A stretch of 30,300 bases of DNA from assembly GCA_009602725.1 (NCBI GenBank), contig WELB01000314.1:83538-113837 (forward strand), read 5' to 3'. This DNA is from Spirogloea muscicola (lineage: Eukaryota > Streptophyta > Zygnematophyceae > Spirogloeales > Spirogloeaceae). The position numbers and the translations under genes were made by a program. Under the pieces are notes generated by a model. It made no database searches and was not told where the DNA came from. It saw only the letters and a program-made list of their open reading frames with translations. Positions 146 through 24,400 of this stretch are shown piece after piece (the stretch's first letter is position 1; each line of letters opens with the position of its first letter).

Positions 146-3100
146 GCCCTTCGGCGCCGGCTCCATCCTGCCCGCCAACTACACCGTGACCATCCCCGGC
201 GCCGGCGGCCACAATGTCTCCTATGCGCCCTGCGTCTACCCCTGCGTCCCCACGCTCGGCCGCGCCGGCACCGAGGAGACCATGTCCTACGACGGTCAGC
301 GTCACCGCCAGCGCGCACACCCCACATTGCGCCTACCCTCGCCCCGCCAGCGCTTCGGCTCTTCGACCCGCCCGCCCGCCGGTGTGCCTGACGCCCGCCC
401 CTCCTCTCTCCCGCAGGATACTACCACAGCTTGGCTCACCCGGACTGGGGCATCACAGGTCAGTCATCCCATCCTTCTCCCCTCGCCGCTCCCGGACCTC
501 TCCCGGTTCGGACCGCGTCAGTTGTGCCTTGCCTAGGGTCAAGCCCTCTCGCGCCTTGCCTCTCTGCCGGCAGCGGCGCTCTGCTCGGCCTCTCGCCGTG
601 GTGGCCCGCTGGCCACCTGTGCCCCGTGCCCCCACCCCGCGCGCCCTGCTCGGCCCTCGCGTCGTCCCGTCAAGCCCCTGAGGAGGAGCCGTCTGTCCGC
701 GTCGTCCCCCGTGCAGAGGGCCAGCTGTCGAGGAGGCTGCCGTACGGGTACAGGGACGGCGTGCGAGAGCCGGGCGGGTGGGACCGGCCCAACCCCCGCA
801 CGCTGTCCAGAGAGCTGCTGGCCGGCAACACCGGGTAAAGCGCGCCCCTTCTCCGCTGCCGCGCCACGGGCTGGCAGCTCGCCTCCCCCCCTCCCCCTCA
901 CTCGCCGCCCACCCACCGGTGCCCACGCGCCCGTCGGCTATGCCCGCGCCGGATAAGCCCGGGCTCCCGCGAGGCTCTCGCCACCGCTCAATGACCGGCA
1001 GTGTGCCGGCATGGAGCCTGCGAGCGGGGCAGGAGAGCGGCGCCGCGTGCCTGCCTGCACTGCCCCGCTGCCCGGATGCTGACGTGCCCACCGCCTGGCT
1101 TGTGCAGGCACGGGTCGTACCGCAACCGCACCGCGCTCATGGTCTTCTTCGGGCAGCAGGTCGTGGAGGAGATCATCGACTCGCAGGTCCCGGCGTGCCC
1201 CTTGGGTGAGCTCTCCTCCGACCCGCTCTTGCCCGTGGACGGCCACCCGCGCTGGCGTCTGCCGCCCCTGCCAGTCGCGCGAGCGTGTCCTGTCAAACTC
1301 CACGACCCCATTTGCCTCTCCCTGCCCGGGCCGCACACTGACGGTGTTCTGAAGGTTCTGCCCGGCGCTCCCGGCTTGCCGCCTCGCCCGGAGCATGCAT
1401 GGCTGATACCCTCCGCGCGCGTGGCCAGAGTATTTCAACATCCCCATCCCCGAGTGCGACGACCTCTATGACCCCAACTGCACGGTACTGCCCGGCCACC
1501 AGGCCCCTCAGCCGGCTGCCGGGCCCGCCGACCTGCCACTATCTCCACTGCCTCACGTGCCGAGAAGGGCAGGGGCCCGCGGCTGCCACGCGAGAGCTTG
1601 ATGCACAAGCCACGAGCTCCGCTCCGGCCCTCGACCTGCTCCTGCTCTGGCAAAAGCCCCGCTGCGGGCGTCGCAGCTGCGCCGGGCCGCTGCGCTCAGT
1701 CATCCGATGCTGTGCTCCTCTGCCCAGGGCAAAGTGGAGATCCCTCTGCCCCGCATCCGGTACATCGCCAGGACTGGCGATGGGCCGAGCGCCCCCCGCG
1801 AGATCCTCAACGAGGTGCCCCTCATTTCCCCCGATGAATCCGGGACGCAGCTCCTTGCGCGACCCTCCCAATCAGCGCGGCGAGCGTCACACGCTGACCC
1901 CCACGGGGGCGTGCACGGTCGTTCGCCGGCCGCGCAGGCCTGCTGCCGAACCCCCCCTCGTGCCGGATTGCCTGCTCGCCTGCTCTTTCCGCCCGCCCGG
2001 GGGGAACACGGTCTGTCGGGGAGCTGCGGGCCTAGAGCAAGCAGCCCATCCTGATGGGCAGGAGTGCCGTGAGTGGTGGCCAGGTGACGCCGTGGATTGA
2101 CGGCGGGCTCATGTACGGAACCGCCAAAGCTTGGTGCGACGCCTTGCGGAGCTTCAAGGACGGCAAGCTGCTCGAGAACCCCGAGCGGTGAGCAGGGCAT
2201 CCAACCCTAGTTCCTGGAGCGCGGTCTGCTCTCTTGCGGCTGGGGCGGGGGACTTGGTGGTGCGATTTGAATGCACGTCCCCTCTTGCCGATGCCGCGGG
2301 AGGTGAGCATGCACGGATGCAATCCGCCGACTCACGTTCATCTCCGCCCGCGCTCTCGGCCGCAGTCCTGGCTACCCCGCCCACAACGAAGTGGGACTCC
2401 CGATCTTCAACCCGACGCTGCCCCTCGACCACCACTACAAGCCAGCCTCCCGCCTCTTCAGTCCGTGCCCCACCCTCCTCTGACAGCTCTCGTGCTCGAC
2501 AGCTCTGTCGCCCTGACGCCGTCGCACGACGCTGTCCGCGGTCCTGCATGCTCGGGCTGGGTGCTGCGGTCCGAGCCTGGGCAGCCTCGCTCCTCGCTGC
2601 TGCACGGGATGCTGGGAGGACTCGTCGACAGGCGGAGGCTTCGTGTGCCTGATGCCTTCCCCTCTATCGCTCTCCCCGTCTCTCTGGTGTGGCGGCAGGG
2701 ATCGGCAACCCCCGTGGGGAGGAGAACCCTTACCTGGTGAGCACTGGCATTTGAAGGCTCGGCTGCGGTTGACGGGTGCTATCAGCCGCTTCGGCGTTCG
2801 GCGGAAGAGCCGGTAGTGTGCACAGGTTCTCCCTGTGCCGATGCCCGCGACAGGACACCAGCACTGACCTTTGGACCGTCCTGTGCCTGGCTTTCACAGC
2901 TGTCCTTCCAGGTGCTGTGGTTCCGCCATCACAACTGGTACTGCGAGCAGCTCAAGCTGCAGCACCCCACTTGGACCGATGAGCAGCTGTTCCACCGAGC
3001 CCGCCAGTTCGTGGTTGCCACCTACCAGGTAGCCAACCGGCCCGCCAGGTTGCGCCTGCGCCTCGGCGCCATCTTGCACTCGCTGGCGGGGGCTGGCTGC

Positions 3101-6100
3101 CGTGCACCGGATGCTGACGAGCCAAGCGCGTCGCCTGTCGTCCGCCGCTCGCAGCACATCCTGATGGACGAGTGGCTGCCCGCGTGGCTTGGCCCCGTCA
3201 TTACGATCCCAGCCTATGACGGGCACAAGCCCAAAACCTTCCCTTCGGTCCCCGTCGAGTTCCAGGTGCAAAGTCGGCCCCTTCCCTGGCCCGTGCGGGC
3301 CCTGTCGCCTGGGGCCTCCGTTGAGCCGGCAGCTTGCCTCAGCTCCTGAGCTCACACCAGCTCAAGTCAGACGAGCACGGGGAGAGCCTGGCTGACCCCG
3401 ATCCTGCACCCGCAGAGTGCCGCGATGAGGTTCGGGCACACGCTGGTGACCCCCGGAGTGTTTCTCCGGGACAAGACCTGCAAATTTCGTGACATGAACC
3501 CAAAGGTCGGTCGCACGACGCGGCGCCCTCCTGTGTCTCTCTGGCATGCTGGCCATCTGGGACATGAGGGCCTGTGGGCCTCACAGGCGGACTCACGATG
3601 TGGGGCTGTCACCGAGGCTGCAGGCGGACCCGCACACGGTCCTCTCGGGCAAACACAACATCCGCACGTGCAACAGCTACTTCAACTCTCCCACCGTGCT
3701 CACGCACGTCACCATCGAGGAGGTCTTCATGGGCCTTGCTTCGCAGAGGTGCGAGCGCGAGGACAACATCATCACCGAGGACCTCCGCGGCTTCGTCTTT
3801 GGGCCACCCGAGTTCGATCGCCGCGACCTCATGGTAGGCTTCTGCATGCCCAGTCCTGTTTTCGCTCTCCGAAAGCCCTCCGCAACAGCTGGGCTCCCTG
3901 CCTACATGTGGAGCCGAGGGCTGGCTGGGCAGTCGGCGGTTGTAGCCTGGAGGGACCTGCCGTTGCGGTACGGCGGCCGGCTGGATCGCGCCCTGCACTG
4001 GGCACGCGGCGAGGACTGACGAGCCCAGCGCCCGGGCATCGCTTGACGCAGGCCATCAACATCCAACGCGGGCGTGAGACTGGCTTGCCAGACTTTCAGG
4101 TGAGGTTTCGCTGCTGCTGCACCCGCAGTGGGATCCGGGCACGCCAATCCCCTCCTTAATTGCAGGCCACAAGCGCTCCGGAGCACACGAGGCCCCGCCG
4201 GCAGCACCGTTGCTCGGGCAGCGTGCTGGGCACTCAGTGGGGCTGACGACCTCCACCGGGAGCTCGTGCGCAGACTGCTCGGAGGGAGTACGGCCTGCCC
4301 GAGTACACGACCTTTGAGGAGATCGTCGCTGGCCAGGAGGGCACCGACGACGACGGCACTCCTACCAAGGACCGCCTGGCTCGCAAGCTCAAGGAGCTCT
4401 ACAACAACGACATCAACAACATTGACATCTGGGTCGGCGGCATCCTGGAGACCACGCGCAACGGGCCCGGCGGCCTGTTCAAGTACGTGCCCTCTGACTC
4501 TGACCATCGTCGATGTCCCCTCCTCCTCCTCGAAGCGAGGGTCTGCGTCTCGCCCACGCGCTCGAGCGGGTGGGGACGTCAAAAGCGCCCCGGTCGCTGA
4601 GTGCTGGTGCATGTGTGCAGAGCGATCCTGCTCAACGTCTTCACGAGCTTGAGGGAGGCGGACCGCTGGTGGTACGAGAACCGGTTGAACCGCCTCTTCT
4701 CCGAAGAAGAGATTGCCGACATAAAGGCAGCCAAGCTGTCCCACATCCTCAAGTGAGACAGCTCGCCCCGCTCCCTCGCGTCTGTCTCTTTGAGGGGCCG
4801 GCTTCTGGCACCATCCGGCTGCTCTGCCCCCTCGATTGGCGTCTGCCAGCTCGCCGGCCCGAGGCTGCTCTCTATCCTGAGCAAGCCACCCCCCTCCCTG
4901 GGCACGGCCAACTTCAGGAGGGTGGACATTTATGACATGTTTGGAGAGTCGCTCCAAGAGAACGTGTTCCAGGCCTCGGATGAGCCCAAGTACTGCCCGC
5001 AGCCGTTCCAGCTGAGCCAGTTTGACTTTGCCAACTGCACGGCGCCTGGGGTGAGTGACCAGTGCCACACATACTCCCCGAGGCATGAAGCGTGAGCAGC
5101 GACACCCTGCGCGAGCGGGTGTCTCAGCTCCCCTGACGTGCCAGGCGGTGGGGGCATTGTGGCTGGTTGCAGCACCATGACTACTACCCCGACGACACGC
5201 ATCCCATCTTGTGGACGCTTGTGGGGACCTCTGTGTGCACCCTGCTGCTCACGGCAGCCTACTGGCTGCTGACTGCCGGCAAGCTGGGGGGAGCCAAGCG
5301 GTCCTTCTTTGCCTGCAATCCGTGGCGCAGGCATCACCCATCCAAGATCCTCGAGAGCATGCCGCGGGCCCACCTCTCTGGCGAGAACGCACAGCGAGGT
5401 GAGAGTGGCTCACGCCGCTGCTCTTGCTGCCCGCTCGAGGGCGAGGCTCTGGTGACCAGGAACGACAGCGTCCGCCGTCGTGACCGGTTGCCGAGGCCAC
5501 GCTCCGAGACCTGCTCACATTCGGACCTTGAAGCAGCGGCAGCCGCGCCCCCTCTCCCCTGCTGCAGCTGCGAGCCCTTTGAAGGGCGGAGACGAGGAGA
5601 TTGTGTTTGGGGAGCGGGGGACGCGAGCCTCCAGCTGCTTCCTGGTTCTCGGCTTCCGTACGGCACCCGTCGCTCGTGAGTGCCGACGCTGCTGATGACC
5701 TTGTCGCGGCGAGGAGCTCAGCGGCGGGGAAGCTGGTGCCGCCTCTCTCCCGAGGCTGCTTGCTCCCGTACGTGGTTGCCTGTCTGCCCGGTGGCCGACC
5801 GCAGCACTACTCTGTTGGCGTGCTGCAGACATCGAGAACGCCGACCTGAAGGAGGAGGCCAAGTGGATGGTGCTTGAGACTCGGGGGCATACCATCATGG
5901 ACTGCTCCGAGCTCAAGAGCCCTGCAGGCCTGAATGCGGTCAGGTACCTCCAGCTCCGGAGCCTGGTCTGCGAGACCACCGGCAACGCGTTCCCAGCCCT
6001 CGCCGTCCTCGCCAAGAAGCCCCCGGCCTTTGAGGGCGAGAAGGTGCTGTACGTGGAGCGCACGATCCCTCTGCAGCTCGTCGACGCCATCTCCCTCGAC

Positions 6101-9100
6101 GCCGCCGCCCAGCTGCTCTGGCTCGAGGTGAGCCTCGGAGCCCGCCTGGGGCTGCTGCCAGCCTGCCGTCGGCTCCCTCTGCGGTCGCACGGGATGTGCG
6201 CCTGCGGAGAGAAAAGAGCGTCTGGCTCACGTTCGCCGAGCCCGTGGTTTGCAGGTGCGCGTGGGGCACGATGTCCTCATCACTACTGACCGGTGTCGGG
6301 AGCTGTTCGAGGACATGGCAAGGGGAGTGAGCGGAGCCCGTGAGGCTGCGGGGCTTGATGCGCCCCTGCTCAACAGCACTGCGGATGTTGCTGGCTCTGC
6401 CATCGGGCGCGGGCGCCTCAAGACTGCTGATAAGCGGAGGGAGGAGGTCGACGGCATTTCGCGTCACATCATCAAGCGCCTGGTGGACACTCGCGAGGGT
6501 GCTCCAGGTGTGCGCTGCTGGCAGACGCACAGAGCCCCTCCCTGCATGCTCATCGCTTCTGCTCTGCCGACTCTGGACCAGCTGTGGCACGCTCCTCTGA
6601 CGTCCTCGTGCCGCGCCTTGGTCATGCCTTGCTGCACAGGCCTCTCGGGGTCGCTACGCATTCGCTTCTCCGGCCTGTTGGGCATCCGTGAGGAGCCTGA
6701 GAACGGCGCAGGCCTCGCGCCCACGGTGGTGGATGACCCCTTGGAAGCCGTGATCGGCCGGCAGGAGCTTGCGGACGCCTTCCAGAGATCCCCCAACTCG
6801 TTCTTCATACGGTCCACCTTTGAGCTGGCCCTCAAGCTGGAGAGCACGCAGAAGCTGCCGCCCGGCTACGTCGTGGCGCAGGACGTGGTCTGGTTCTTCC
6901 GCCTCTTTTATGCGAAGGACGCATTCGCAAAGGCCCAAATGATCTTCGCGCGCTTTTCCTGTGGTGAGACTGCGCTCACACGCCGGGCGGCCCCCGCACC
7001 GGCCCATTGCCTGAGATGGCTGATGCCCCTCTTCTGCTTGCCTCTGGATGGGGACGTCACTTGCAGGGATGCCTGATCCAGGCTCCCCTCCTCGGAGCTC
7101 TTGGTGTGGTGTGGATCCTGACGAGTGCGTGGCTGGCAGGCGAGACCGTGGTGTCTGGGCTCCAGAAGCAGCAGATGCACTCGTTCATGCAAGCCGTGGC
7201 CCCGCGAGGCACCGCTGTGCCAGACTATTCCGCCAAGAAGGGCCTCACAGTGGAGGAGTTTGCTCGCCATGATGCCACGCGCATTGTCTCGCACTCTGGC
7301 CCCTTGGTTGCCAGCTCCGCCCCCCTGGCCTCGGTTTACGAGGGCGAAATCAATCTGGTGAGGGTGGTTGCCCCTTGACTTGTTGCCCTGTCCTCTGGTG
7401 ACACTGAGAGCCCTCTCAAGTGGTCCTGGCATCACGGTGCCTGCTCTAGAGCAGGACGACGGTGAGCAGTCCTCCTGCAGGCGGCCAGTCAGCATGCAGG
7501 GTAGCGTTGGGAGCCTCGTCCACCTCAGAGGTGGCGGCAAAGAGGGTGTGGGGTGTAGCCAGCTCCTTCTTGCTGTAACTCGCATCGTGACTCTGCAGGT
7601 GGTGAAGGACAATGTGAACAAGGCCGTGGGCACGCTTGATCTCGTGGCTGATGCCATGGACACCATCGCGCAAGTCAAGCACAGCGTCAGCGAGACGCTT
7701 GGCCTGGACCCCGCCGAGGATCTGGTGCTCACCATGGAGCAGAACCCCCTCAGGGAGCTCCGGGACGGGGACATAGTGGCAGAGTACAACATCCGAGCAG
7801 GGTCGACACTGATTGTTCAGCGCCGCCGGGATTTCACCAAGGGCCCGCAGGTGCTCGATCGGCACCGCAGTCTGAGGTCCCGCTGTAAAGCGGGTGGTGT
7901 GCGCAAGGCGTGCTTCGGGCCTTTCGCCAACGTGACTGACGGTGTTTGTCGGTCCTTGTGCTGGTGGCTGTGCATCAGCTGCAATCATACCCGAGCATAG
8001 GCGGACGGGGCAGGGCAGGTGTCCTGGAGGAGGATATGGCACAAGCAGAGGAGGTGCAGGCTGCTGAGGTCGCGCGGCCTCGCTCCAGGTGCATGGGCAA
8101 GGCAACGGGGCCTTCTTGAGCCCCTCCTGCAGGCCCTTCCTATTCTGTGCTGGATCGAGCACTGCTTTGATTGGTGCGGAGATTGGAGCCGGGTGAGCCC
8201 ACATTGTCGCCAGCTGACCCTCACTCTCGCGCCCCTCATGCTCAGGCTCAGCAAGCTGTGGTACCACTTCATAGACAGCATCGTCGAGAACCGCCTCCTC
8301 TGGATCTGGCTCACCCTGTATTTCCTCGTGGAGATCGGCCTCTTTGTCGGTAAGCATGCTTCTTCCTGCCCCCTCCCATCCCCATCCTCGAATAGGCAGC
8401 TCTTGCCTGGTGGCGGAGTCTCTGGATGGCCACCACTGTGCCGTCATCAAGTCGCACGTGCAGACATCTCTTGCGCCTGCCCGAGCGATCTGACACCCCA
8501 TGATCAATCAAGTTCGTGCACTCATGGGGGGGGGTGGCCCGTTGCTCCTCGTCCCTCAGAGCGGTGGTACACCTATGCTTTTGAGATGGAACGCGGCGGC
8601 CTGCGCCTCATCGCGGGTTATGGCGTCGCCACAACCCGTGGCGCTGCGCAGTGCTCCATGTATAATCTGTCCCTCCTCCTGCTCATGGTCTGCAATCACA
8701 TGTGGACGTACCTGCGGGACACGCCCGTTCGCTTCATCTTCCCCATTGACAACGCCTTGCTGCTACACCAAGTGATCGGTTACAATGCCTTCTTCTTTTT
8801 TGGCCTCCACACTGTGGGACACATGTTCAATTTCTACAACATCTGCACGCAGCCACAGTTTGAGATCAACTGCTACTTCCGCGAGACCTTTCTGTACTCG
8901 GACGAGCTGGTGTCCTTCTTCTCCTTCTGGGGCCTGACGACCGTCACGGGCTTCTCTGGCCTCCTGCTCGTCATATTCAGCGTCCCCATGGCTGCCTTTG
9001 CCATGGTCCCACAGGCCCGCCAGCGCTTCTTCCGGACGTTCCAGTACACGCATGACCTCTTCCTGCCCATCTACGTGCTCGTCTTTGTGCATGGCTCTGC

Positions 9101-10337
9101 CAGGCTGGTTCAGGTCCCCTACTTCCACTGGTTCTACCTCGGCCCGGGGGTGCTCTACCTCCTCAACTGGATCGTGGCCAAGAACGCCTCGCTGGTCGGC
9201 TGGAAGGTCATGGCAGCGCAGCACCTCCCTGGCAAGGTGCTCAAGCTGGCGCTGGAGAAGCCGCCCAACTTCCAGTTCAAGTCCGGCCAGTACATCACGC
9301 TGTGCGTCAAGCAGATTGGCTCGACTCCACACCCCTTCACCATCTCGAGCGCGCCCGACGAGGAGTACCTGACCATTAACATCCGCGTAGTGGGCCCCTG
9401 GACTTCCAAGGTCTACGAGCTCTTCACCCCGAGCTTCTATGGGGAGGACTCCCGCAACCCCTGCACGCCGTTCCCGACCGTCTTCATCAATGGGCCGTTT
9501 GGCGAGGTGCACCAGACCCTTGCGGGCGAGGACATCCTTGTCCTGGTCGCCAGCGGCATCGGTGTGACCCCTGCGTCGTCCATCCTGAGGGACCTGCTCT
9601 ACCAGATTGCGCGCGACAAGGCGAACGAGGATCTCAAGGACAGGCTGACCTCGCACGCTTCCAAATACGCTGACAGCAACTCCGCGTCGGTGTTGGGGGC
9701 GTCTGCGCTCACCGAGTCGGCCCGCCTGCAGCCCACGCAGCGCTCCATCTACTTCTACTGGGTGGCGCGGACCCAGAACCAGTTTGAGTGGTTCACGGAG
9801 GTCTTGCGCGAGCTGGAAGAGCGCGCGGCTGCCGAGCCCAACCTGCACTTTGAGGCGGCATTGTTTGTCACCGAGCCCAGCGTGGGCTTGGACCGGCAGC
9901 TCGCCCAACTGGACCAAGCAGAGGTCCGAGGCGCCTACACGGACATCCCGTCTGCGTACACAGGACTCCGGGCCCGCACCTTCTTTGCCCGACCAGATTG
10001 GAGGAAAATCTTCAGGCAGCTCAAGGCTGAGTTGCCTTTGCGCCCTGCCATCACCGTCTGCTGCTGTGGAGCTCTGGCTGTCAGTGAGAGTGTCAAGTAA
10101 GTCCCACTTACCGAGCACCCACTCCACGCACTGTCGTCATATCAGGGTCCAAGCTGTCAGCTGTCAAGCCTGTCAGCTGGCGCTCTGCGCACTGCTAGTC
10201 ACCCTTGCAAAAAGTGCCTCGAAGTCCCTCTCTGCAACCAGCTCTTGCTGACGGGTGTTGGCTCCATTGGCAGGGAGGCTTGCGTGGAGGCCTCTGACGC
10301 GCACCAGACATTCCACTGCTACAGGGAGACGTTCTGA
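1..10337 (+). CDS. DUOX: Dual oxidase-like protein (peroxidase homology domain + NADPH oxidase), 5'-partial, 28 exons
   Basis: This enzyme family moves electrons from cytosolic NADPH through FAD and two hemes to O2, giving superoxide/H2O2 outside the cytosol. I place exons at 66-294, 417-458, 717-834, 1108-1205, 1429-1484, 1728-1814, 2084-2187, 2366-2460, 2699-2736, 2912-3028, 3155-3265, 3416-3505, 3624-3833, 4052-4099, 4274-4482, 4621-4752, 4918-5050, 5173-5398, 5568-5675, 5829-6127, 6255-6507, 6640-6963, 7140-7357, 7599-7850, 8133-8173, 8246-8349, 8560-10096 and 10274-10337. All join in phase, giving about 1,780 residues from codon 66 to the TGA at 10335; human DUOX is about 1,550. Order: leader (1-24), peroxidase-like domain (about 77-594), TM (about 651-672), EF-hand-like region (about 935-1115), ubiquitin-like domain (about 1113-1192), six-TM ferric reductase, FAD/NADPH lobe. 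The last exon ends FHCYRETF, like the aromatic-rich NOX C-terminus. No Met is visible, so the start is missing. The exon at 8133-8173 is the least certain. Confidence 0.95.
417..4752 (+). other. DUOX peroxidase homology domain (animal heme peroxidase fold)
   Basis: The exons spell the DUOX peroxidase signatures in order: SLAHPDWGI, FFGQQVVEE (about 1148-1171), PWIDGGLMYGTAKAW, LWFRHHNWYCEQL, RFGHTLVTPGVF with the proximal-type His codon at 3437-3439, EEVFMGLASQ, DRRDLM joined to AINIQRGRETGLPDF, TARREYGLPEY, and NIDIWVGGILE. After the FGQ motif, the distal His-Asp pair of true peroxidases is replaced by Glu-Glu, much as in animal DUOX, where this domain is thought not to act as a classical peroxidase. 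The 5' leader places the domain outside the cytosol. What it does here is not visible from sequence. Confidence 0.93.
5173..7357 (+). other. DUOX first TM and cytosolic linker with degenerate EF-hand region
   Basis: Exon 5173-5398 carries one clear TM helix (ILWTLVGTSVCTLLLTAAYW) followed by a basic stretch, matching the single TM after the DUOX peroxidase domain. Exons 5568-6507 match the DUOX PH-like linker in outline (for example VGHDVLITTDRCRELFEDM). Exons 6640-7357 follow the DUOX EF-hand segment: GRQELADAFQRSPNSFFIRS corresponds to the entering helix, and KKGLTVEEFARHDA to the last helix. The calcium loops are not preserved. No DxDxDG-like run occurs; the first loop position reads KLESTQKLPPG and the second FSCGETVVSG. 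Calcium binding is therefore unlikely (inference). Confidence 0.8.
7349..7829 (+). other. Ubiquitin-like (beta-grasp) domain inside DUOX
   Basis: The end of exon 7140-7357 (EINL) and exon 7599-7850 together read as a full ubiquitin-like domain of about 76 residues. Segments align in order with ubiquitin: INLVVKDNVNKAVGTLDLV (strands 1 and 2), DTIAQVKHSVSETLGL (helix), DLVLTMEQNPLRELRDGD, then VAEYNIRAGSTLIV, which resembles ubiquitin's SDYNIQKESTLHLV. The splice falls within the first strand and is in phase, so the domain belongs to the oxidase transcript. There is no C-terminal Gly-Gly; the strand is followed by QRRR, so it is an embedded domain and not a conjugable modifier. A Ras-binding beta-grasp domain is an alternative reading. 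The identity is a judgement by eye. Confidence 0.82.
8133..9190 (+). other. DUOX ferric-reductase transmembrane domain
   Basis: Exons 8133-8173 and 8246-8349 give the first helix region (LWYHFIDSIVENRLLWIWLT), and the large exon from 8560 gives the rest. The two bis-heme histidine pairs are present with NOX spacing: His codons at 8766 and 8808 (14 residues apart, within HQVIGYNAFFFFGLH) and at 9051 and 9090 (13 apart, within HDLFLPIYVLVFVH). The intron 8350-8559 is 210 bases long, a multiple of three, and has no in-frame stop. I treat it as an intron because exon 8246-8349 then joins at LFVERWYTYAF and the boundaries are GTAAGC...CCTCAG. Confidence 0.92.
9200..10337 (+). other. DUOX FAD- and NADPH-binding lobe
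   Basis: The FAD-binding motif HPFTISSAPDE lies at 9330-9362, after GQYITL. NADPH-binding segments follow: NGPFGEVHQ (about 9490), LVASGIGVTPASSIL (about 9540-9585) and IYFYWVARTQNQFEWF (about 9748). The C-terminal nucleotide-binding motif, usually CGP, reads CCCGALAVSESVK here, so Pro is replaced by Ala. The exon ends at 10096 with a donor AA|GTAAGT, and the last 20 codons come from 10274-10337. Without that splice the protein would stop at 10098 and lose the conserved terminal FxxxxETF. Confidence 0.93.
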
Positions 10338-11350: not shown

Positions 11351-13192
11351 ATGGGCAGCCGAGGCCCGGGGCCCGCCATGGCGGCGGCGCTGGTGGCGCT
11401 GCTGTGCCTGGCGCCCGCCGCGCGGGCCTACAGCGTCGGCGACTTCGTGCCCATGCAGCGCCGCGGGCAGTACCACAGCGTCGGGCCCGCGCCCCCGGCC
11501 CCGCTCCCCTCTCCTTCGCCGCGCAGGGCTTGGTTGGCCTCACCCTCACCCTCCCCCCCCCCCGGCGGCTGCTGCGCGCCTCGCAGATGCGCATGCACTG
11601 GCACGACGCCCTCGGCCGCCACTGCCCCCACTTCGCCGTCGACCGCGAGGTCGCCGCCCCGCTCTACTGCCCCCCCACCTCCTCGCCTGCATCACGGCCG
11701 AGGCACGCGGAGCCGGCGAGACGCTGAGCGGGCGCGACCTCCTCTCTCCTGGCTGCACGGCAGGTCGTGCTCCCCGTGCCCAGGCCCGTGGGGTACAGCC
11801 CAGGCGAGCCGTACAAGCTGTGAGCGACCAGCCGCAGGCGCCCAAGCACCGCGCGTTCTGTGCATGAGCATCTCACGTCCCCACGAACTGGCTCTTGGGC
11901 ATGCTGGCCTTCGGACTACCCCCCGGGGCCAAGGCATCCCACCGCCGTGTCTGCCGGTCTGCCACAGAGGCACGCCTGGCCACGGCCGCTGACAAGCCTC
12001 TCACAGCACACACTCGCCGGTCGCGGGGCAGTTCCTTGCAGTTTGGCAAGGAGCGCTTCGTGACTCCTTGGCTCTTCGTTCTCGGGCGCAAGGGGCCGGA
12101 CATACCTGTCGTTGACGTCACCCTGGTCAGTTGGACCCTTTCCAGACGCAAGCTGCAGGTCGCTCCCCCCCAGACTGGGTTGGCCGCGTGTGGGCTCCTC
12201 CTCCTGAACACCTCACCATCAAGCTGTCCGTTGCCTCAGACATGAGGCTAGGTGGGGCCACCGTGTCCTTTTCTCTGCAGGCTCATTTCGCCGGGGAGCT
12301 CCGCGGCGCGAAGGCCCAGGTTGCGCCCATGCCGAGCAAATGTGTGTCCCAGCCTCCGCTGCTTCTCTGACGCTTATCCTGGACTAGTTGGACAGTCCTT
12401 GGTCTTCCAAGGCAGCCCGCTGCTTTGCATGAAGCAGTCAGCCCTCCCCCGTGACTTGCTTGGCGTGGACTTGACCCGGAGGATATTCAGCTATTGCGTC
12501 GGCCTTGCGCAGTGCACGTTGTGGCCCTCGCTGGATGACTGAGCTGAAAGTCAGTCCGCTGTAGAGTGGTCTCCTTCTGCGTGTCAAGGTTGAGGTGACG
12601 GGTCTGCCTGCTCTGCTCAACAACAGCCCGCTGGCATTTGTTGGTCGACTGCAGATCTCCATCTGCACCCTGACATCGCACAGCACTACCACAACGACTC
12701 ATCATGGCCCAAACACATTCTTCTGCGCTACACCTGGTTCTGCTTCAGGCCTACCCAGAAACTGGCTTGCAACTACATGACCTTAGCCAGATGGGGTGCA
12801 CATGACATCTCTCTGACGCACCTTGACGCACTCATTGCCTTGGTCGCTTGAAGGAAGGAGCAGGCAGAGATGGACAGCAAGGCCGGACTCTATGTCCTCT
12901 TCGGCAGTGGTACAGCTTCCAGCTCTTGGCCCTTGAGCCGTGTACTTGCCTCTGTATTTGTCAATCGCCCCTTGTGACTTGCCATGCGCGACTGCCATAG
13001 CTGACTGTCTACTACTCCCTGCACACCATTGGCCATCTTGCAGCTTTTGCTATGACCACCACACTGGCTCTGTATATACTGCAGTCATCCAAGGAGAAGA
13101 TTGCTCGGTCCGTCCTCATCTCCTTCCTCCTGCTGTTACTTCCTCAGTGGCGCTTGACACAAGCTTTGAGTCAAGCTCTATTTTTGCGTTGA
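11351..13192 (+). CDS. Conserved small type I membrane protein of plant/algal type, function unknown (8 exons)
   Basis: Exons at 11351-11479, 11587-11649, 11764-11819, 12032-12125, 12281-12341, 12655-12736, 12854-12909 and 13044-13192 join in phase to 690 bases, 229 residues. The ATG at 11351 opens a signal peptide (MAAALVALLCLAPAARA, cleavage before YSVGD). The lumenal part carries strongly patterned segments: VGDFVPMQRRGQYHS, HWHDALGRHCPHFAVDRE, PRPVGYSPGEPYKL, FGKERFVTPWLFVLGR, WPKHILLRYTW. One TM lies near the end (AFAMTTTLALYILQSS) with a short cytosolic tail. I recall an uncharacterised single-TM family in land plants with the same order of motifs, but no established name or role, so none is assigned. 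The last exon's 3' end is the least certain part; the tail after ARSVL could be spliced differently. The gene follows DUOX on the same strand with about 1 kb between. Confidence 0.85.
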
Positions 13193-15444: not shown

Positions 15445-18400
15445 ATGGCCGCCCCCGCCGGCGCCGCCGACGAGGCCGCCGCCGAGGTGGCGGCGCTGGA
15501 CCGCCTGCTCACGCGCCTGGCCTTCACGGACGACTCCCGGCTGGGGCGCGTGCTCGCCAAGCTCCTGCCCGCCGCGCTGCTGCGCCTCGCCTCGCCCTCC
15601 CCCGCGTCGCGCGCCAAGGTGCTGGAGATGCTGTCCCACATCAACGGCCGCGTCCGCCACGACGGCGCCATCCAGCTCCCCCTCCACCACCTCCTCGACA
15701 TCGCCCGCGACCCCCTCGCCGCGCCCATGGTCGCCACCTTCGCCGCCGTCTACCTGGACCTGGCCTTCCAGCGCAGCAGCCCCGCGGAGCGGCGCGGCGT
15801 GCTGGGCGCCCTGCTGGACGGCGTCGCGCGGCGAGCCCCTGCGGACCGGGCCGTGCACCTGCGCCTCGCCGCCAAGGTGAGCCTGCGGTGGGCAGAGGCA
15901 CCGCGCCGGGTGCGCCGGCTCTGCACAGCTGGCCGTGACCTCGCCGAGCTGAGCTGCGCGGGCGGCCCGCCGTGCGGGCCCCGCCAGGCGCTCGACATGT
16001 ACGGGACGGCGAAGCCCCTGGCCAAGGAGGAGCTGCAGGACGCCCTCGCCTTCATGGCGCAGCCCGACGACCGCTCCCTCGCCCTCGAGTTCTGCCTCCA
16101 CAGCCTCATCTACGCCCCACCCGGCGCGGCCGAGCGTGGGTGAGCCCCTCGCCGCGTCCTTTACCCCTTTTCCCCGCCGCCTTCCCAGGCAGGTGCGAAA
16201 AGGGCAACTGCGGTACGGGCGCGCCTCGGGAGGTCCTGTTGGTGCTGAGCTGCAGGCAACTCCGCCATCGCAGCACCTCGCAGGCTCCTCCGGGGCTGTC
16301 CCAGGAGCAGGCCCAGGGAGTGGCCGGCACCAATGAGCTGGCCGGGGACGCCCTGGTCACGCGAAAGGTGCCTCCGTGCCCCAGCTGCGGCGGTCACGCC
16401 TGCACGCCGGCGCGCCCGGCAGCAGAGCGAGCTGCGCGGGCACCTGGACGTGACAGTTCCACTCGTGCACACCGCGCAGCTGGGCCTGCTCAACTTCCTC
16501 TCCGCCGCCGACTACACACCTGCAGACGTCTACCCCCACTTTCTCGTGGCCTCGGCTGATGGGTGAGCACCAGCAGCGTGCCCGTGCCCAACCGCCGCGG
16601 CTTCATAGGCTGCGGGCGCGCAGCTCCACCGGAAGCTCGTGGCAAGTGTCGGCCTTCAGCTGCTGAGCCGGTCGGACCAACTGCAACAGGGACGAGCGAG
16701 TGTCAAAGAGGGGCGAGGAGCTGATGAAGCAGCTGGGAGGATCCGCCGATCTCGAGGATGCGGGGCTGGTGTCCCGCCTGTTCCGCCTCTACTTGGGTGA
16801 GCAGCGCCGCCTCCTCCGTGGCTGCAGTGGCTTGCGGTGCCCTACAAGCCCCGTGGTGTCAAGCTGCGCGCCCTGAGATGGCGTACACCGAACATGGCGT
16901 GCACCAGGCACGTCAAGTAGCGGGCCTGCAGGCACCACTGTCCGCAAAGCAAGCTTTGCAGTGAGGGCTCGGCTGCTGGCTTGCTTCACGCACTCGGTGA
17001 CGGCTGCCAACAGGTTCCCCGATGTGCTCAGCCTCATCGACGACTCGGTCTCGGGTTGGTGCTGCGCCCACCTTGCTCACTGCACTGCAATTCACCACCG
17101 CATGCCGTCCATGTTGACAGCTGCCTCCGCTTGCCCTCGTGAAGTCTGTTCACCTGTCACGCTCGCTGGCTTGCCAGGTCCCCACACTGGTCCCCGTCTG
17201 AAGCGGGTGGGGATGGAGTTTGCCATCTGGGTCTTCAAGCACGTTAGCTTTCCCCCCGACTTTGCTCTGAGCATTCTGCCGTGTCCATGGTCGAGGCACT
17301 CTCCGTGGCCACTGCGTGAGCAATGCCTGACCTGGCATCGGGGGCGTGCCAGGCTTCCGACGACCACATGGAAAGCATGGGTGCTGAAATCTACAGGAGC
17401 CTGGTTGAGCTCCTCGACGCCACGGAGCCCGACGACACCTCCACTCCAGGCAACTCACCGCTTCCCTGAGTCCCCAAGCCACCGCCGCATCGGCCTGAAG
17501 GCAAGAGGTGACCCGGTGCGGTGGTGGGCCGTGCTCGCAGATGCCGTGTCGCAGCAGCTCCGCATCTTTGCGTTCCAGGGGCTTGGGCAGCTGGCCGGGA
17601 GGGCCCCGCACGTGTTCAGGTACGTGCCATCTCGTACCGCAGCACCTTGTGCTTGTGCGGCAGGCATCTGGCTCTGGTGGCTGTGAAGGTCAGAGTGCGG
17701 TCAGGGCAGTGAAGAAGTGATGGCCAGCTTTCCAGGTGCTCACAGGCGTGACGGGTTTTGTTCGTGACAGGGAGAACGAGATAATAGTCGAGCGGTTCCT
17801 TGCTGCACTGGCAGTGGAAAAGGGTTCGACACGCAGCGCGCTGCAGGAAGCAAGCGCAAGTCTGGCGTCTGCATACAAGGTGATTGTGTGCCATGTGGCA
17901 TTCAACTCTCGCTGAGAGGCACTCGAGTGTGCCAGGCTCACACCAGGCTCGCGGTGCTCTCGCTGGGCATGACACGTCCTTGACACACCCAGCTCCACTT
18001 GCTGGGGCGGTTGCAGGGCTGCTCACAGGGTGTCTCAAATCGCATTGAGCGGCTCCTACTCAAGTTTGTCGACACGGTGCGCTGCCCCCCCCGCTTTTCC
18101 CTCCTCCGGCCCAACCCCTACCCCTTCCTCAAGAAAACTTTCCCGTGCCCAACTACGGCATGCTCCACGAGGCACTCTAATAGCGTCCCAATATGGAGCC
18201 ACACTCGATGAGGGCTGTGCTTCGAGCTTGAGCATCATGTCCCATCATGTGCCTCTGGGTCTGGACAGGGCGACGATGCAGCTCGCTTTGCAGCCGTGCA
18301 GTGGGCTTCTCAGCTCTTCCACCCTACACATGCCCTCGGCCGCTACATCTGCATCAGAGGAGCTGGCGATAGCAGGCCAGATATACGGTATGCCGTTTGG

Positions 18401-21400
18401 CTTTGGCGACCAAAAGTTGGCGAGCTAGCCTGGCCAGGTCCTCCGGATGGCGTGGCTGACAACTTGGCTTCACCTGGCACGCTGGCAGAGAGATGGCAGA
18501 GCGTGCGCTTCAGGTGGAAGCTGATGCTGGTGTGCTCGTTGAGGGCAAAGCGGCCAGGAAGCTTCCCCAGCTGCGCTTCATGATGGACTGCATATTTGAG
18601 CAGCAACCAGGGCTGAAGGATCCTGTCGCCTCCCACGACAGCGTGCTGCTATTCCCTGTGCCTATCTACCTCATCCTCTTACGTTTCACTCGAAAGTGCT
18701 TTGAAGCGGAGCAAGGAGTCAAGAAGTACGTCAGAGAGGGTGGCATGGACGTGGAGACCCGGCAGATGTATCGGCAGCTTCTGGAGCATGCGTTTGCCAC
18801 CAGTGGCACTGCCGAGCTGCAGATAGAAGCTGCAGAGGGCATCTTGGCTTTAGCCTCCTTGGACCCACAGGCGAGTATCCCCTCAACTGCATGCATCTCA
18901 GAGGTTTCCGCTCAGACTCATGCACCAGTGCACGACCACGCACTGAGGAGGGGCATCACAGTCGTCAGGCGCGCTGGCTGGCATGCTGCAGAGATTGGCC
19001 TTGGCGTACCGCGACCGCTTGTGGTGGCTGAGCCAGCACGTTGCTTCCATCAGCAGCAACGTGCGCGTGATCATGGCAAAGATCATGGGCATTGTCACCT
19101 CCGCTCTCAGCTCGCAAGAAGCCCAGGGGCTCCTGCAAGAGCTCCACGCTACCCTCTCCCCTCCTCTAGATTCCGTCAGGTCCTTGGGGGGGCCTGTTCG
19201 TCACGAGAAGCTCCATGGCAGCGTGTGCGCCACAGGCTATGTACTGGCGCAGGCAGCAACCGGCACCCCGGAGGTAGGTCTCTGATAAGCAAGGCTGGCC
19301 GATCATGGGTGAGTCAGAGAGCAATGCTGACATTCGTCAGAGTCCGATTCACTTGCAGGTGCCACGGGAGCGGCAGGCACGCATTGTGGCAGTGCTGTGC
19401 AGCCTCTTGGCGGATGCAGATCCCCAAATCGCTGGTGCAGCGGCTGAAAGTCTTGGACACATTGGTCTGCGCGGCCCTCTCCCTGTGCTGCCGGGAGGCC
19501 TTGGGCCAGTCACTTCGAGTTGTCGAGTGGACGGCGATCAGGCAGCAGATGAAGCGGAGGTGGGCGGGTCGTCCTTGAGCTCTCTTGTCGAGCGAATGGA
19601 AGCATTGCTCCAAAGTGCTGATGCCAAGGCTGTGCAGAAGTCTGTCATTGCTCTTGGCCACTTGGGCTTTGGCTCCCCGTGGCCCAAGCTCTTGGATGCT
19701 GCCGCGAGGGCTGCCTTCTCGCTCGCCAGCTCCAAGGTTATTCAATGCCCCTGTGCGCGCATTTTGTCGGAGTTGCTGTGAGCACGTGTGAAATACTGCT
19801 TAAGTGAAGTGAAGGGCGTGCACGTGTTGTGGGGTTGACAGTCACAGCTGATACACAGAGGTGCCGCGGGAGGGCAGGCAGAGGACGTGCTTTTCGCAGC
19901 AGGGGAGTCATTGGCGTACACCTGGGGCAACCTGCCGATCAGTGCAGACGTGATACTACGGACCAGCTTCACGTCCCTGACAACGTCCTTCAAGCCCAAA
20001 CCCAATGGGGACCCTGGGGAAGCATCTACCATGGACACCGACGGTGAGGATGAGGAGCGCGGGGTGAGAGCCAAGATCACAGAGAAGCTCTTCAAGGAGC
20101 TTCTCATCAGTGAGCGCAGCGAGGAGCGGTGTGCTGGCTCTGTGTGGCTCGTGTCCCTCCTCACGTACTGTGGCCGCCAGCAGCAGCTCCAACGCATCCT
20201 TCCCGAGGCCCAGGTTGCTCCCGGGCGAGCTTCATTGGCTTGAGTCACTAGCCTTTGAGCAACAGTGAAGCAGGGAGGATGGGCTTGTTGGCATGTGAGC
20301 GCACCGGGGCACTGCCGTAACCTATCACGTGAAAGTGCAGGAGTCGCTTCTACAGCTGCTGGGAGACAGCGATGCCCTCACGCAAGACATGGCTTCGCGC
20401 GGCATGAGCCTCGTGCACGAGCTCGGGGATGATGCCACTCGCAAGCAGCTGGTGGCTGCTCTTGTCGACACCCTGTCTGGAGCGAATCGGAAGAAGCGGG
20501 CTGTCAAGGTCCAGTGCAGCTCCTTGGGCTCTTCTTGCTTCCCGTCCAGATATCGCGCGCTTACCTGTCCAGTAAGAGGACGTGTGCGTAAGCATCTGCT
20601 CCGCCGCGCGCTGCCATGCAGTTGACAGAGGACACGGAAGTATTCCAGGAGGGTGCTTTGGGAGAGGCACCAGGCGGCGGGAAGTTGACCACATACAAGG
20701 AACTGTGCACGCTGGCTACTGAGATGGGCCAGCCCGACCTTATATACCGCTTCATGGACCTTGAGAATTATCAGGTGTGCGTCTGCATGTTGAGCACTTG
20801 TCCGCAGCACTCGGCATGCTGCTTGAGGAGCGTCGCCCACGGAGCATGTGACGAGTAAGGCCGTTGCTGCATCACCGGGGTACAGTTTACTGACTCGCTT
20901 TCTTTCCCCCGCAGTCATCCCTGAACTCAAGCAGAGGCGCTGCATTCGGGTTTGCCAAGATTGCCAAGCAGGCTGGAGCAGCACTGGAGCCCCACTTGGC
21001 AACACTCTTGCCCAAGCTGCTGCGCTACCAGTATGATCCAAATCGAGGCATCCAGGATGCGATGACCCACATCTGGCGTGCCCTGGTTGTGGACCCCAAG
21101 GCCACTGTAGACAAGCACCTGGATGCAATCCTGGAGGATCTGTTGGCCAGTGCTGGATCCCGTCTGTGGCGTTCCCGCGAGGCGTCATGCCTTGCCCTGT
21201 CTGACCTGCTTGCCTCACGGCGCTTTGATGAGGTGAGAGTGATCTGCGTTATAGCAAGGGATTGTCAGCTTAGCTACTTGCTTGAGAGTGGCAACTTATG
21301 GTGGCCTGTCGGCATATGGAGCAGGTGGGCAAATTCTTGGAGAGAACGTGGCTAATGGCAATCCGCGCGATGGACGACATCAAGGAAAGCGTCAGACTTG

Positions 21401-24400
21401 CGGGGCAGCGGCTCGCGACGTCTGTCAGCAGTTTGTCAGTGCGGCTGTGCGATCCGGCACTGACATCCCCCCGAGCAGATGTGGACCGAGCTGTGGCCAT
21501 CGTGCTACCCTTCCTTCTCTCCCAGGGGCTTGACAGCGCTGTCGCGGATGTGCAGCGCCTCTGCCTCAAGGCCATCACCAAGATTGTCAAGGTCCACCAG
21601 TGTCCTCCTGCAGCCTCGTCACTTCGTCAACATCCGTTTTCACCTGCTCATAAGCTCTTCTGTGCTGCTTGACGTGTCGGCTTGGCAGGGAGCAGGGCCG
21701 GCAGTGCGGCCGCACGTGCCAGACCTTGTCGCAACGCTGCTCGAGAGCCTGTCCAGCATGGAAGACCAGCGTTTGAATTATGCTGAGGTTGGACTCGCCA
21801 CATTTTATCAAGGGCCCCCCTTTTCGTGCTTGCCAGCGGCCTGCGTGACTCTTGTGTACCACGCAGTGACCATTCTGAAACCATGTTGGATTGGATCCGT
21901 CAGATGCACACTGAAACCTTGGGGCTATCCCACGAGAAGCTGGAGGATGTGCGAGTGGGCATGTCGCGCGTGTCCCCAGCATGGGATGCCCTTGACACGT
22001 GTGTCTTCCAAGTCGATGACGCCTCTCTGGCTGCTCTTGTGCCACGGCTGGTCAGCCTTGCACGCTCCGCAGTCGGACTTAACACCAGGTAAGTGGCGAC
22101 TAGTGTAAAAAGGCGGCTCGCTCGCATCACCAGCTGGTTGCTCGCCAGCCATCTGACTTGTCCTGATAAATGCGCAAATAGCAGCTGCACTCCTTGTAGA
22201 ACCTGCACTCGTCCCTTGTTTGGGCTCATCTTGAGTGTGCTTATGGGTGCAACCTCCTGCCTCCCTGCCTCAGGGTAGGGCTGGGAAAAGTTGTGGGTCT
22301 TCTGGTGCAACGTCTAGGGGCAACATCGGTGAGGCCTTACTCGGGGCCGCTGATACGGGCCCTGCAGCAGGCAACCATTGGGGAGCGCAGTCCCACGGCC
22401 CGCCGAGCATTCGCCTCTGCATGTGCGGAAGTGGCCAACTGTGCACCAGGCACCTTGTTGACGAAGCTGTTGCAGGACGCTGTGGCCCTGTACTCTGATC
22501 CTGGTGACAAAGACTCGAGGGCAGCCAGTGGCCTGCTCCTGCGTGAGCTCTCCCGCAGGGCATCTTCGTCGCTTCAGGCCCAGCTGTCAGACTTCCTGCC
22601 GCTTGCATATCTTGCTCGCTATGACGAGGAGAAGGAGATCCAACAACAGTTCTCTGAAGTTTGGGAGGAGAACAGCGGAACTGAAACTGCAGCACTGCAG
22701 CTGTACGCTGCCGAGATTGTGGCACTAGTCTTGGACGCGCTCTCGTCTTCTTCGTGGACACGCAAGCGGCAGGTCTGTATGATCTGGAGATCGACATCTC
22801 ACAGAATGATGCACCATGTGACCTGGACATACAGCATGTGTTTGTCTTTGTATTGCTTGCTTACCAGTACCCCCCTGGATGCAGAGCGCGCTTGCCATCA
22901 AGGGGATGGCGGAGTCTGGCCTCAGCTCCTTGGATGGGCACTATGCATGTTCAATCGTTGCCCGATTGGTAGACGAGCTGCCTGGTCGGTTGTGGGAGGT
23001 ACTGTCTTGGGCTCTCAGGTGCTGCATCATCGCAGGCATGAGAGTCAATGACGACATTCCCTGATGCATGTTGTGGTCAGGGTCGTCAGGATATTGTGCA
23101 TCTCCCAACTGCGCATCTACTGTGTGCCGTTTCAGGGAAAGGAGTCGATCTTGGAGGCTGTTGCAGCCGTCAGCAAGACCTGTCACGTGGCCCTTTTGAC
23201 TGGATGCCAGTTACAGCATGAACCAAGGAGTATCGTGAATGCAGTTGTGGACTCCTGCAAGCGGAAGAAAACGGCCTTCCGCCTTGCAGCTCTAGCTTGT
23301 CTGGAGAAGGTGCACAGCATTTCCTTTCCCTGTTCTTGTATCCCACACAACACCTCGTTCTCTCACTAATCTGTTGGAGGTTCTGGGCATCACCCCAGGT
23401 ACTCAGCACCTTCCACGATGTGGACATGTACGAGGAAGTCCACAGCCTGCTTCTGCCTTCGTGCTATCAAGCAGAACCGAGTCGTGCAAGTGCTGGAGAA
23501 GTTGGTTGGTCTCGATGCGCTCTTTCTGCTCCGCGCCACTTGCTTTGCTGAGTGCATTGCTCACCAGGCAGGCTGACTAACGTCGTTGTCATGAGTGTGC
23601 CTCCTCTGAGCTTCTTGCTTATCTGCTCCTAGGTTACCTTTGATGCAGACGAGGGAGACGCAGTCGATGCGGCGTTGCCTGCCGGCCCAGCTCTTGCGTG
23701 CCTCTCTGCAGCTTGGAGTGCAGCCTCTCCATCAACAGTTGGTGCAAAAGGTGCTGAGGTCACCGAGGGGATTGCTCATGCCCTCCACGGAAACCTCGCT
23801 TGGAACGGTGAGTCTGAGACAGAAGTCCACAGCCTGTGCTACTCCCTCCCCCCCNCGGTGCCAGGTGCACAGGCACTTGTTGACAAAGAATGCCACCAAT
23901 TTGCGCACCATCTGCCCTTGGCACTGCACGGCACTCCTCAGAATGCAAGTTGACAATCCTTTTTTCTGAGCATTACCAGATCGCTTGGTTGGGCTTGGAC
24001 TGGCGAAGGCCTTCCTGAAGAAGCTGCAGCCTGGTCCCACAAGCCATGGCGACGCACATTCTGTTGTACGCGCTGTGTCGGTCTGTTAGCAGATACTATG
24101 AAGAGTTTATCTTTCTGGAGTCTTGGGAGCTGCACAATGCTGATATCATGTCACTGTCTATGTCCACTTATGTGTTTCAAAACATTGGCGTGTTATTCAC
24201 TCTCCTGGCTGCCTGCGCAGTTGTCGCTTGAGGAGCGGGAGCGCAATCGGCGCCGGGTTGAAGTCTTACTTCCATCAATTCTGCGTTGCTTGGAGGAGCC
24301 AAAGCATTCGCAGGTAGGCCTGTTTGCCAAGTATGCCACCAGATCAGCAAAGGCTAGATACCCTGAGTAAGAGTAAGGCAGCAGTGCCCTGGCGTTCCAG

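Follow-up and report, generated by a model that had tools for sequence, protein, structure and literature searches.

Oxidases of the plant RBOH type and NOX5 are without a peroxidase domain and depend on EF-hands. The PB1 domains of p67phox and p40phox have the beta-grasp fold, and integral ubiquitin-like domains (Ubls) are present in RAD23-type shuttle proteins, in TBK1/IKK and in USPs. Control of NOX enzymes is described in the available part of PMC9421330 as acting by Ca2+ via EF-hands or through separate subunits. For human DUOX1, the accessible sections of PMC7794343 name D828, D830, N832, E839, D864, D866, N868, and E875 as Ca2+ ligands conserved in DUOX; there, the EF module plus the following linker hold the dehydrogenase domain, and the stretch that links the EF module to preM1 binds to a groove of this domain. 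Human DUOX/DUOXA gene pairs are listed as bidirectional in the part of PMC2871058 at hand.

The green alga Spirogloea muscicola encodes a DUOX-type oxidase in which, as far as sequence can tell, an integral Ubl is very probably real. By a slight preference, this Ubl is read here as a docking surface that would act as a switch on H2O2 production. The window, meaning the whole stretch of 30,300 nt that was analyzed, carries the oxidase gene on the plus strand from its left edge to 10337 (Table 1). In a PDB search with 1437 of the 1563 modelled residues, DUOX1 was the top match (6wxr_A, E = 7.6e-121, 408 bits; 7d3e_A, 3e-119), against 146 bits for NOX5. Pfam families PF01794, PF08022, and PF08030, representing the ferric-reductase, FAD, and NADPH domains of the NOX core, all exceeded their cut-offs, and the sequence was read as having four haem His, spaced by 14 and 13 residues. 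The animal haem peroxidase family PF03098 matched at 3498-3836 (E = 2.8e-8), and its exons were found at three DUOX loci and nowhere else in the genome search. The domain order by sequence is peroxidase-homology domain, transmembrane segment, cytosolic region, Ubl, and NOX core. By analogy, the cytosolic exons at 5568-6507 seem to stand where animal DUOX has its pleckstrin-homology-like domain (PMC7794343, accessible sections).

Exons were modelled from an alignment of three copies of the gene with a dynamic programme that weighs codon usage, synonymous change, indels that keep the frame, and splice signals. Because synonymous change is among the grounds on which it picks exons, its backing for borderline ones is partly circular. 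The Ubl exon had been proposed by the sequence-only reading before the programme was applied. Exons upstream of 2366 were read by eye only and are without an exon-by-exon model, because the copy on contig C68 fails to align upstream of about 2242; the translations of 1-2188 are taken by us to resemble animal DUOX. The model end of the core exon at 10097 was imposed, and a GTAAGT donor begins at this base. Another plus-strand gene with a signal-peptide-like start (MAAALVALLCLAPAARAYSVGDFVPMQRRGQYHS) lies at 11360-13100 of the window, with an open frame at 11868-12242 that has no Pfam family.

Table 1. Features of the oxidase locus and its neighbours (window coordinates unless a contig is named).
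Feature	Position	Strand	Basis and remarks
N-terminal peroxidase-homology exons	1-2188, approximate	+	by eye; includes EETMSYDG / YYHSLAHPDWGITG and LPYGYRDGVREPGGWDRPNPRTLS
Further peroxidase-homology exons	2366-5050	+	comparative model, An_peroxidase, DUOX1 alignment
Individual peroxidase-homology exons, first part	2366-2460, 2699-2736, 2900-3028, 3155-3265, 3416-3573	+	comparative model
Individual peroxidase-homology exons, second part	3617-3833, 4052-4099, 4274-4482, 4621-4752, 4918-5050	+	comparative model
Exon with first transmembrane helix past peroxidase domain	5173-5398	+	exon model, DUOX1 alignment
Cytosolic exons 5568-5657, 5829-6127, 6255-6507	5568-6507	+	comparative model
Exon where the EF-hand module is expected	6640-6963	+	exon model; weak alignment to DUOX1 739-814 (1.7 bits)
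Second exon where the EF-hand module is expected, terminating in INL	7140-7357	+	exon model
Start of Ubl strand 1 (Ile-Asn-Leu)	7349-7357	+	sequence, hhalign
Ubl exon, 84 codons, 252 bases, phase 0-0	7599-7850	+	exon model, profiles
Linker exon, in-frame join from Ubl to NOX core (LQSYPSIGGRGRAGVLEEDMAQAEEVQAAEVARPRSR)	7979-8088	+	exon model
Pre-M1 / first core helix exon	8246-8349	+	exon model
NOX-type ferric-reductase, FAD-, NADPH-binding core	8560-10096	+	exon model, Pfam, DUOX1 alignment
Last exon, ending ...HCYRETF stop	10274-10337	+	read by eye
DUOXA maturation-factor gene, upstream of window	about G000:C314:79035-81630	-	PF10204, PDB match
ECM29 proteasome adaptor gene, downstream of DUOX	16877-23048	+	PF24492, E = 3.6e-11

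The Ubl spans 7349-7829 (INL/VVKD...TLIVQRRR) and has the expected EF-hand position on its N-terminal side and the NOX core on its C-terminal side. The sequence-only reading had placed a ubiquitin-like domain here, in frame with the oxidase and with the first strand split by an in-phase intron; exon, frame, in-phase upstream link, and ubiquitin similarity are confirmed as sequence features. A custom profile made with eight ubiquitin-like sequences found in this genome, including one near-identical pair, scored 27.2 bits on the Ubl, while none of 2000 shuffles reached this score (best 9.4) and the reversed sequence gave -0.1. When the first 10.5 kb were scanned in six frames with this profile over open stretches of at least 20 residues, the Ubl was the sole significant match, with E = 5.5e-7 and the next at 4.6. 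The Pfam ubiquitin family PF00240 matched with E = 3.3e-4 and 20.8 bits, under the curated cut-off of 25.4, and on the 473-residue cytosolic segment with 15.4 bits (E = 0.016). The 60 best of 288 rows in the PDB search were all ubiquitin, ubiquitin fusions, or engineered variants; natural single ubiquitins matched at about 2e-3 to 7e-3, and multi-ubiquitin chains get lower E values because the scores of their repeats sum. An hhalign comparison gave 94.6% over 71 columns with 30% identity, the intron-split strand 1 included. Identity with the alga's own ubiquitin was 34% in a separate alignment. The residue opposite ubiquitin Ile44 is Leu in one alignment and Thr in the other, and the classic binding patch is therefore unmappable; the loop following the Ile44 strand is longer than in ubiquitin. 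A C-terminal Gly-Gly is absent, the exon ending with QRRRDFTKGPQ, and the domain appears to be a genuinely integral, non-conjugated Ubl.

The claim that this is a complete ubiquitin-like fold draws on the sequence comparisons and on a homologue-aided structure model, and was not reproduced in AlphaFold with the three copies alone. The sequence-only reading had named a predicted structure other than a beta-grasp as a refuting result, and one of the two predictions was of this kind. In that run, with the Ubl exon of three near-identical copies as rows, the best model (mean pLDDT 78.2, others 50.5-64.5; pTM 0.56) had a helix at residues 2-35 and three strands, with no beta-grasp, and a PDB structure search with it gave no significant match (best E 0.51). 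The run was judged uninformative because of the near-identical rows, the mean pLDDT of 50.5-78.2, and the lack of a PDB match under E 0.5. In the second run, six more Ubls of the same genome, ubiquitin included, were added as rows; the best model (mean pLDDT 79.6, others 67.8-77.2; pTM 0.65) was a beta-grasp with the order b-b-a-b-b-a-b. Among the 50 Foldseek rows listed, this model matched ubiquitin from E 1.2e-4, with query TM of 0.62-0.71 in 48 and 0.27 in two. Since the added rows bias towards ubiquitin, this is a matter of compatibility and not independent proof. Both inputs were without the INL of strand 1, and secondary structure was taken from the best model of each run. That the segment is not a Ubl fold at all, but a local resemblance with a helical N-terminal half, draws on the helical model from three near-identical rows and on the Pfam score under cut-off. 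It is nevertheless very unlikely, as the shuffle test and hhalign span the whole domain, the best model with homologues is a beta-grasp, if a biased one, and the helical model has no significant PDB match.

The Ubl exon is predicted to be joined to the oxidase on both sides. Phases in the exon model chain through 7140-7357, 7599-7850, 7979-8088, 8246-8349, and from 8560 onward, and the intron at 7358-7598 is bounded by GT..AG in all three copies. The splice sites flanking the Ubl exon are identical in the three copies, and the exon is without indels. Its downstream donor, GTGCTC, is conserved and non-consensus, and the 3' edge is therefore less certain than the 5' edge. The downstream exon proposed earlier at 8133-8173 was rejected: its length varies by one base between copies, and such a difference would break the frame. 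The model uses 7979-8088 instead. A separate transcript for exon 7599-7850, or its inclusion only sometimes, would fit the Ubl frame being open backwards into the intron as far as 7362 and an exon that can be skipped with the frame kept. The three copies agree in order, strand, phases, and splice sites, however, and the strand-1 residues INL are encoded in the upstream exon, so this alternative is extremely unlikely. Being symmetric (phase 0-0), the exon could have come as a module.

Further copies of the gene are on contigs C300 and C68, with 92.7% and 91.7% DNA identity over the aligned length and with 99% and 96% identity in the Ubl, respectively. Against these two copies, the Ubl exon has 17 codon differences, 13 synonymous and 4 nonsynonymous, and no gaps (counts are the sum of both comparisons, and a five-base 'exon' at 743-747, which the programme had set at the beginning of its range, was omitted). 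Its pN/pS is 0.10, next to 0.09 for the catalytic exon, 0.17 for exon 6640-6963, and 0.34 for exon 7140-7357, the least constrained of those counted. The intron upstream of the Ubl exon is 10.7% and 14.4% substituted, and introns overall range from 1.6% to 16.3%. Intron 7851-7978, with 4.7% and 7.0% substituted and no gaps, is also rather conserved, and conservation alone thus cannot mark the 3' edge of the Ubl exon. The low pN/pS, the mostly synonymous differences, and the absence of gaps indicate that purifying selection has kept the Ubl as a protein since the copies split. A stable fold serving as a functionally neutral spacer is quite improbable on these numbers, as the Ubl exon is constrained like the catalytic exon and has no indels in three copies, even if the pN/pS of 0.34 in exon 7140-7357 means that the neighbourhood tolerates change.

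The segment upstream of the Ubl had been called EF-hand-like. No EF-hand family matched at E<=1 in Pfam searches of the modelled region, nor in nine plus-strand open frames that cover 5699-8064, whether modelled as exons or not, while a control, a hand-entered EF stretch of human DUOX1, matched EF-hand_7 at 4.5e-16 along with eleven further families. Where 'FSLADK' of mouse DUOX1 stands opposite 'FELALK', a Leu is found at the first ligand Asp, in a stretch that scores only 1.7 bits. Searched in isolation, the region 6640-7357 had no PDB match at E<=10. Descent of these exons from the EF module is suggested by position and by the 1.7-bit alignment; it is likely, although weakly shown. Because two EF-hands with conserved ligands were not found, the protein is treated as a DUOX-type variant and not as a canonical DUOX.

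In all three copies (C314, C300, and C68), exons of the DUOXA family (PF10204, 10 matches) are upstream of DUOX on the opposite strand, so that the two genes stand head to head. The joined protein pieces of the algal DUOXA matched DUOXA1 in PDB with E = 2.1e-11. About 2.1 kb of C314 lie between the first Met found for DUOXA and the first motif found for DUOX, and an assembly gap separates the two genes in each copy. For the ECM29 gene downstream, a second family, PF13001, was slightly under its cut-off (E = 1.4e-4). A RAD23-like Ubl gene, recognized by eye, is at G000:C314:32538, C300:88983, and C68:598790, about 48-57 kb from DUOX on the same three contigs.

The genome searched comprises 153 Mb. 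PF08030 was found at the three DUOX loci only, and PF08022 at these and at three more (C355, C197, and C271). The C355 locus, a ferric reductase of FRO type by eye, was scanned with the profile in six frames and contained no Ubl. No RBOH was seen in exon-by-exon Pfam searches of the genome, which may miss genes. The chlorophyll-binding family gave 68 exon matches, which makes the host photosynthetic. An LHCII encoded in the genome matched chlorophyll a-b binding proteins, with 9vfj_2 as the best row and with rows taken to be from moss and land plants next, before those of Chlamydomonas; together with the genome size and the three copies per locus, this points to a streptophyte alga. The loci of DUOX and DUOXA, the other FAD_binding_8 loci, and some Ubl genes come in threes, as expected after triplication, and a genome triplication of Spirogloea muscicola is mentioned in the available part of PMC7994812. 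Contamination was considered and thought unlikely, given three diverged copies, ECM29 in the window, and the RAD23-like gene that accompanies DUOX on each of the three contigs. A small-subunit rRNA (L003 1343-3016, G000:C33) has a normal 3' end and looks interrupted further 5'; its score with the rRNA model, covering model positions 721-1831, is only 465 bits. A ubiquitin match at G000:C91:386413-386793, minus strand, lies in an open frame of 6335 codons that may be a run-through of N or repeats. Close relatives were also sought elsewhere: 11 stretches of viral contigs fitted a peptide pattern for the Ubl-NOX region and 23 stretches of a prokaryote collection fitted one for the NOX core, with none confirmed in either.

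In human DUOX1, the EF module, once loaded with Ca2+, grips the dehydrogenase domain together with the linker that follows, and electrons can then pass from NADPH/FAD to the haems. In the alga, the EF-hands are unrecognizable, and the Ubl sits in what would be the counterpart of that linker. The Ubl may take over the hold on the dehydrogenase domain or add to it, docking this domain of the same enzyme in cis and/or a Ubl-binding partner in trans, and the outcome would be a switch on H2O2 production that is either independent of Ca2+ or added to Ca2+ gating. Argued from position, this docking switch stands at about an even chance. A wider version is possible but doubtful: the Ca2+ switch of the DUOX-DUOXA pair may have decayed and been replaced by a built-in Ubl switch, through which the ubiquitin/proteasome system or a Ubl-binding protein would gate extracellular H2O2. 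An interaction domain that is part of the catalytic chain itself would extend the described modes of NOX control. As the Ubl is a single exon removable without a change of frame, its role is directly testable.

The interpretation in the sequence-only reading is partly supported: the Ubl-like domain within a DUOX frame stands, whereas of the partners that it offered, a ubiquitin-binding factor or the proteasome is possible and a small GTPase, in the case of a Ras-binding type, is not supported. As the main role of the Ubl, recruitment of the proteasome or of Ubl receptors, with a putative effect on oxidase turnover and not on catalysis, is unlikely. Integral Ubls of shuttle proteins do bind the proteasome, and the ECM29 gene adjoins in the window and the RAD23-like Ubl gene is nearby in three copies, both perhaps by chance; on the other side, the residue opposite Ile44 is uncertain, and that strand is followed by a longer loop than in ubiquitin. 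A Ras-binding-type beta-grasp that binds a Rac/Rop GTPase has next to negligible probability: NOX enzymes are under GTPase control in animals and plants, but no RA or RBD family matched the segment at E<=1 in Pfam, and the matches listed are ubiquitin.

A NOX or DUOX with a Ubl was earlier said not to be known, and among the papers listed in a literature search, judged by titles and abstract openings, none was about such an enzyme; among those listed for DUOX in algae, judged in the same way, none dealt with that subject. The word 'ubiquitin' is absent from the available parts of PMC3591440, PMC1940245, PMC9524095, PMC8956913, and PMC7794343, and in that of PMC9421330 it appears in a reference title only.

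Compared with known systems, the algal protein shares with animal DUOX1/2 the peroxidase-homology domain, the transmembrane helix, the cytosolic region, and the NOX core, and differs in its green-algal host, in having no recognizable EF-hands, and in the Ubl before preM1. The head-to-head arrangement with DUOXA is likewise that of animal gene pairs, the human ones being bidirectional (PMC2871058, in the part at hand). Plant RBOH and NOX5 share the NOX core and, N-terminal to it, a cytosolic regulatory region, but they are without the peroxidase domain and rely on EF-hands, as described in the available part of PMC9421330. The PB1 domains of p67phox and p40phox are, as proposed for the Ubl, beta-grasp interaction domains in NOX control, although no PB1 family matched the Ubl segment at E<=1 in Pfam; they sit in separate cytosolic subunits, whereas the algal Ubl is within the catalytic chain. 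As in other integral-Ubl proteins, the domain is inside a larger protein, non-conjugated and without terminal Gly-Gly, but here the host protein is a membrane oxidase.
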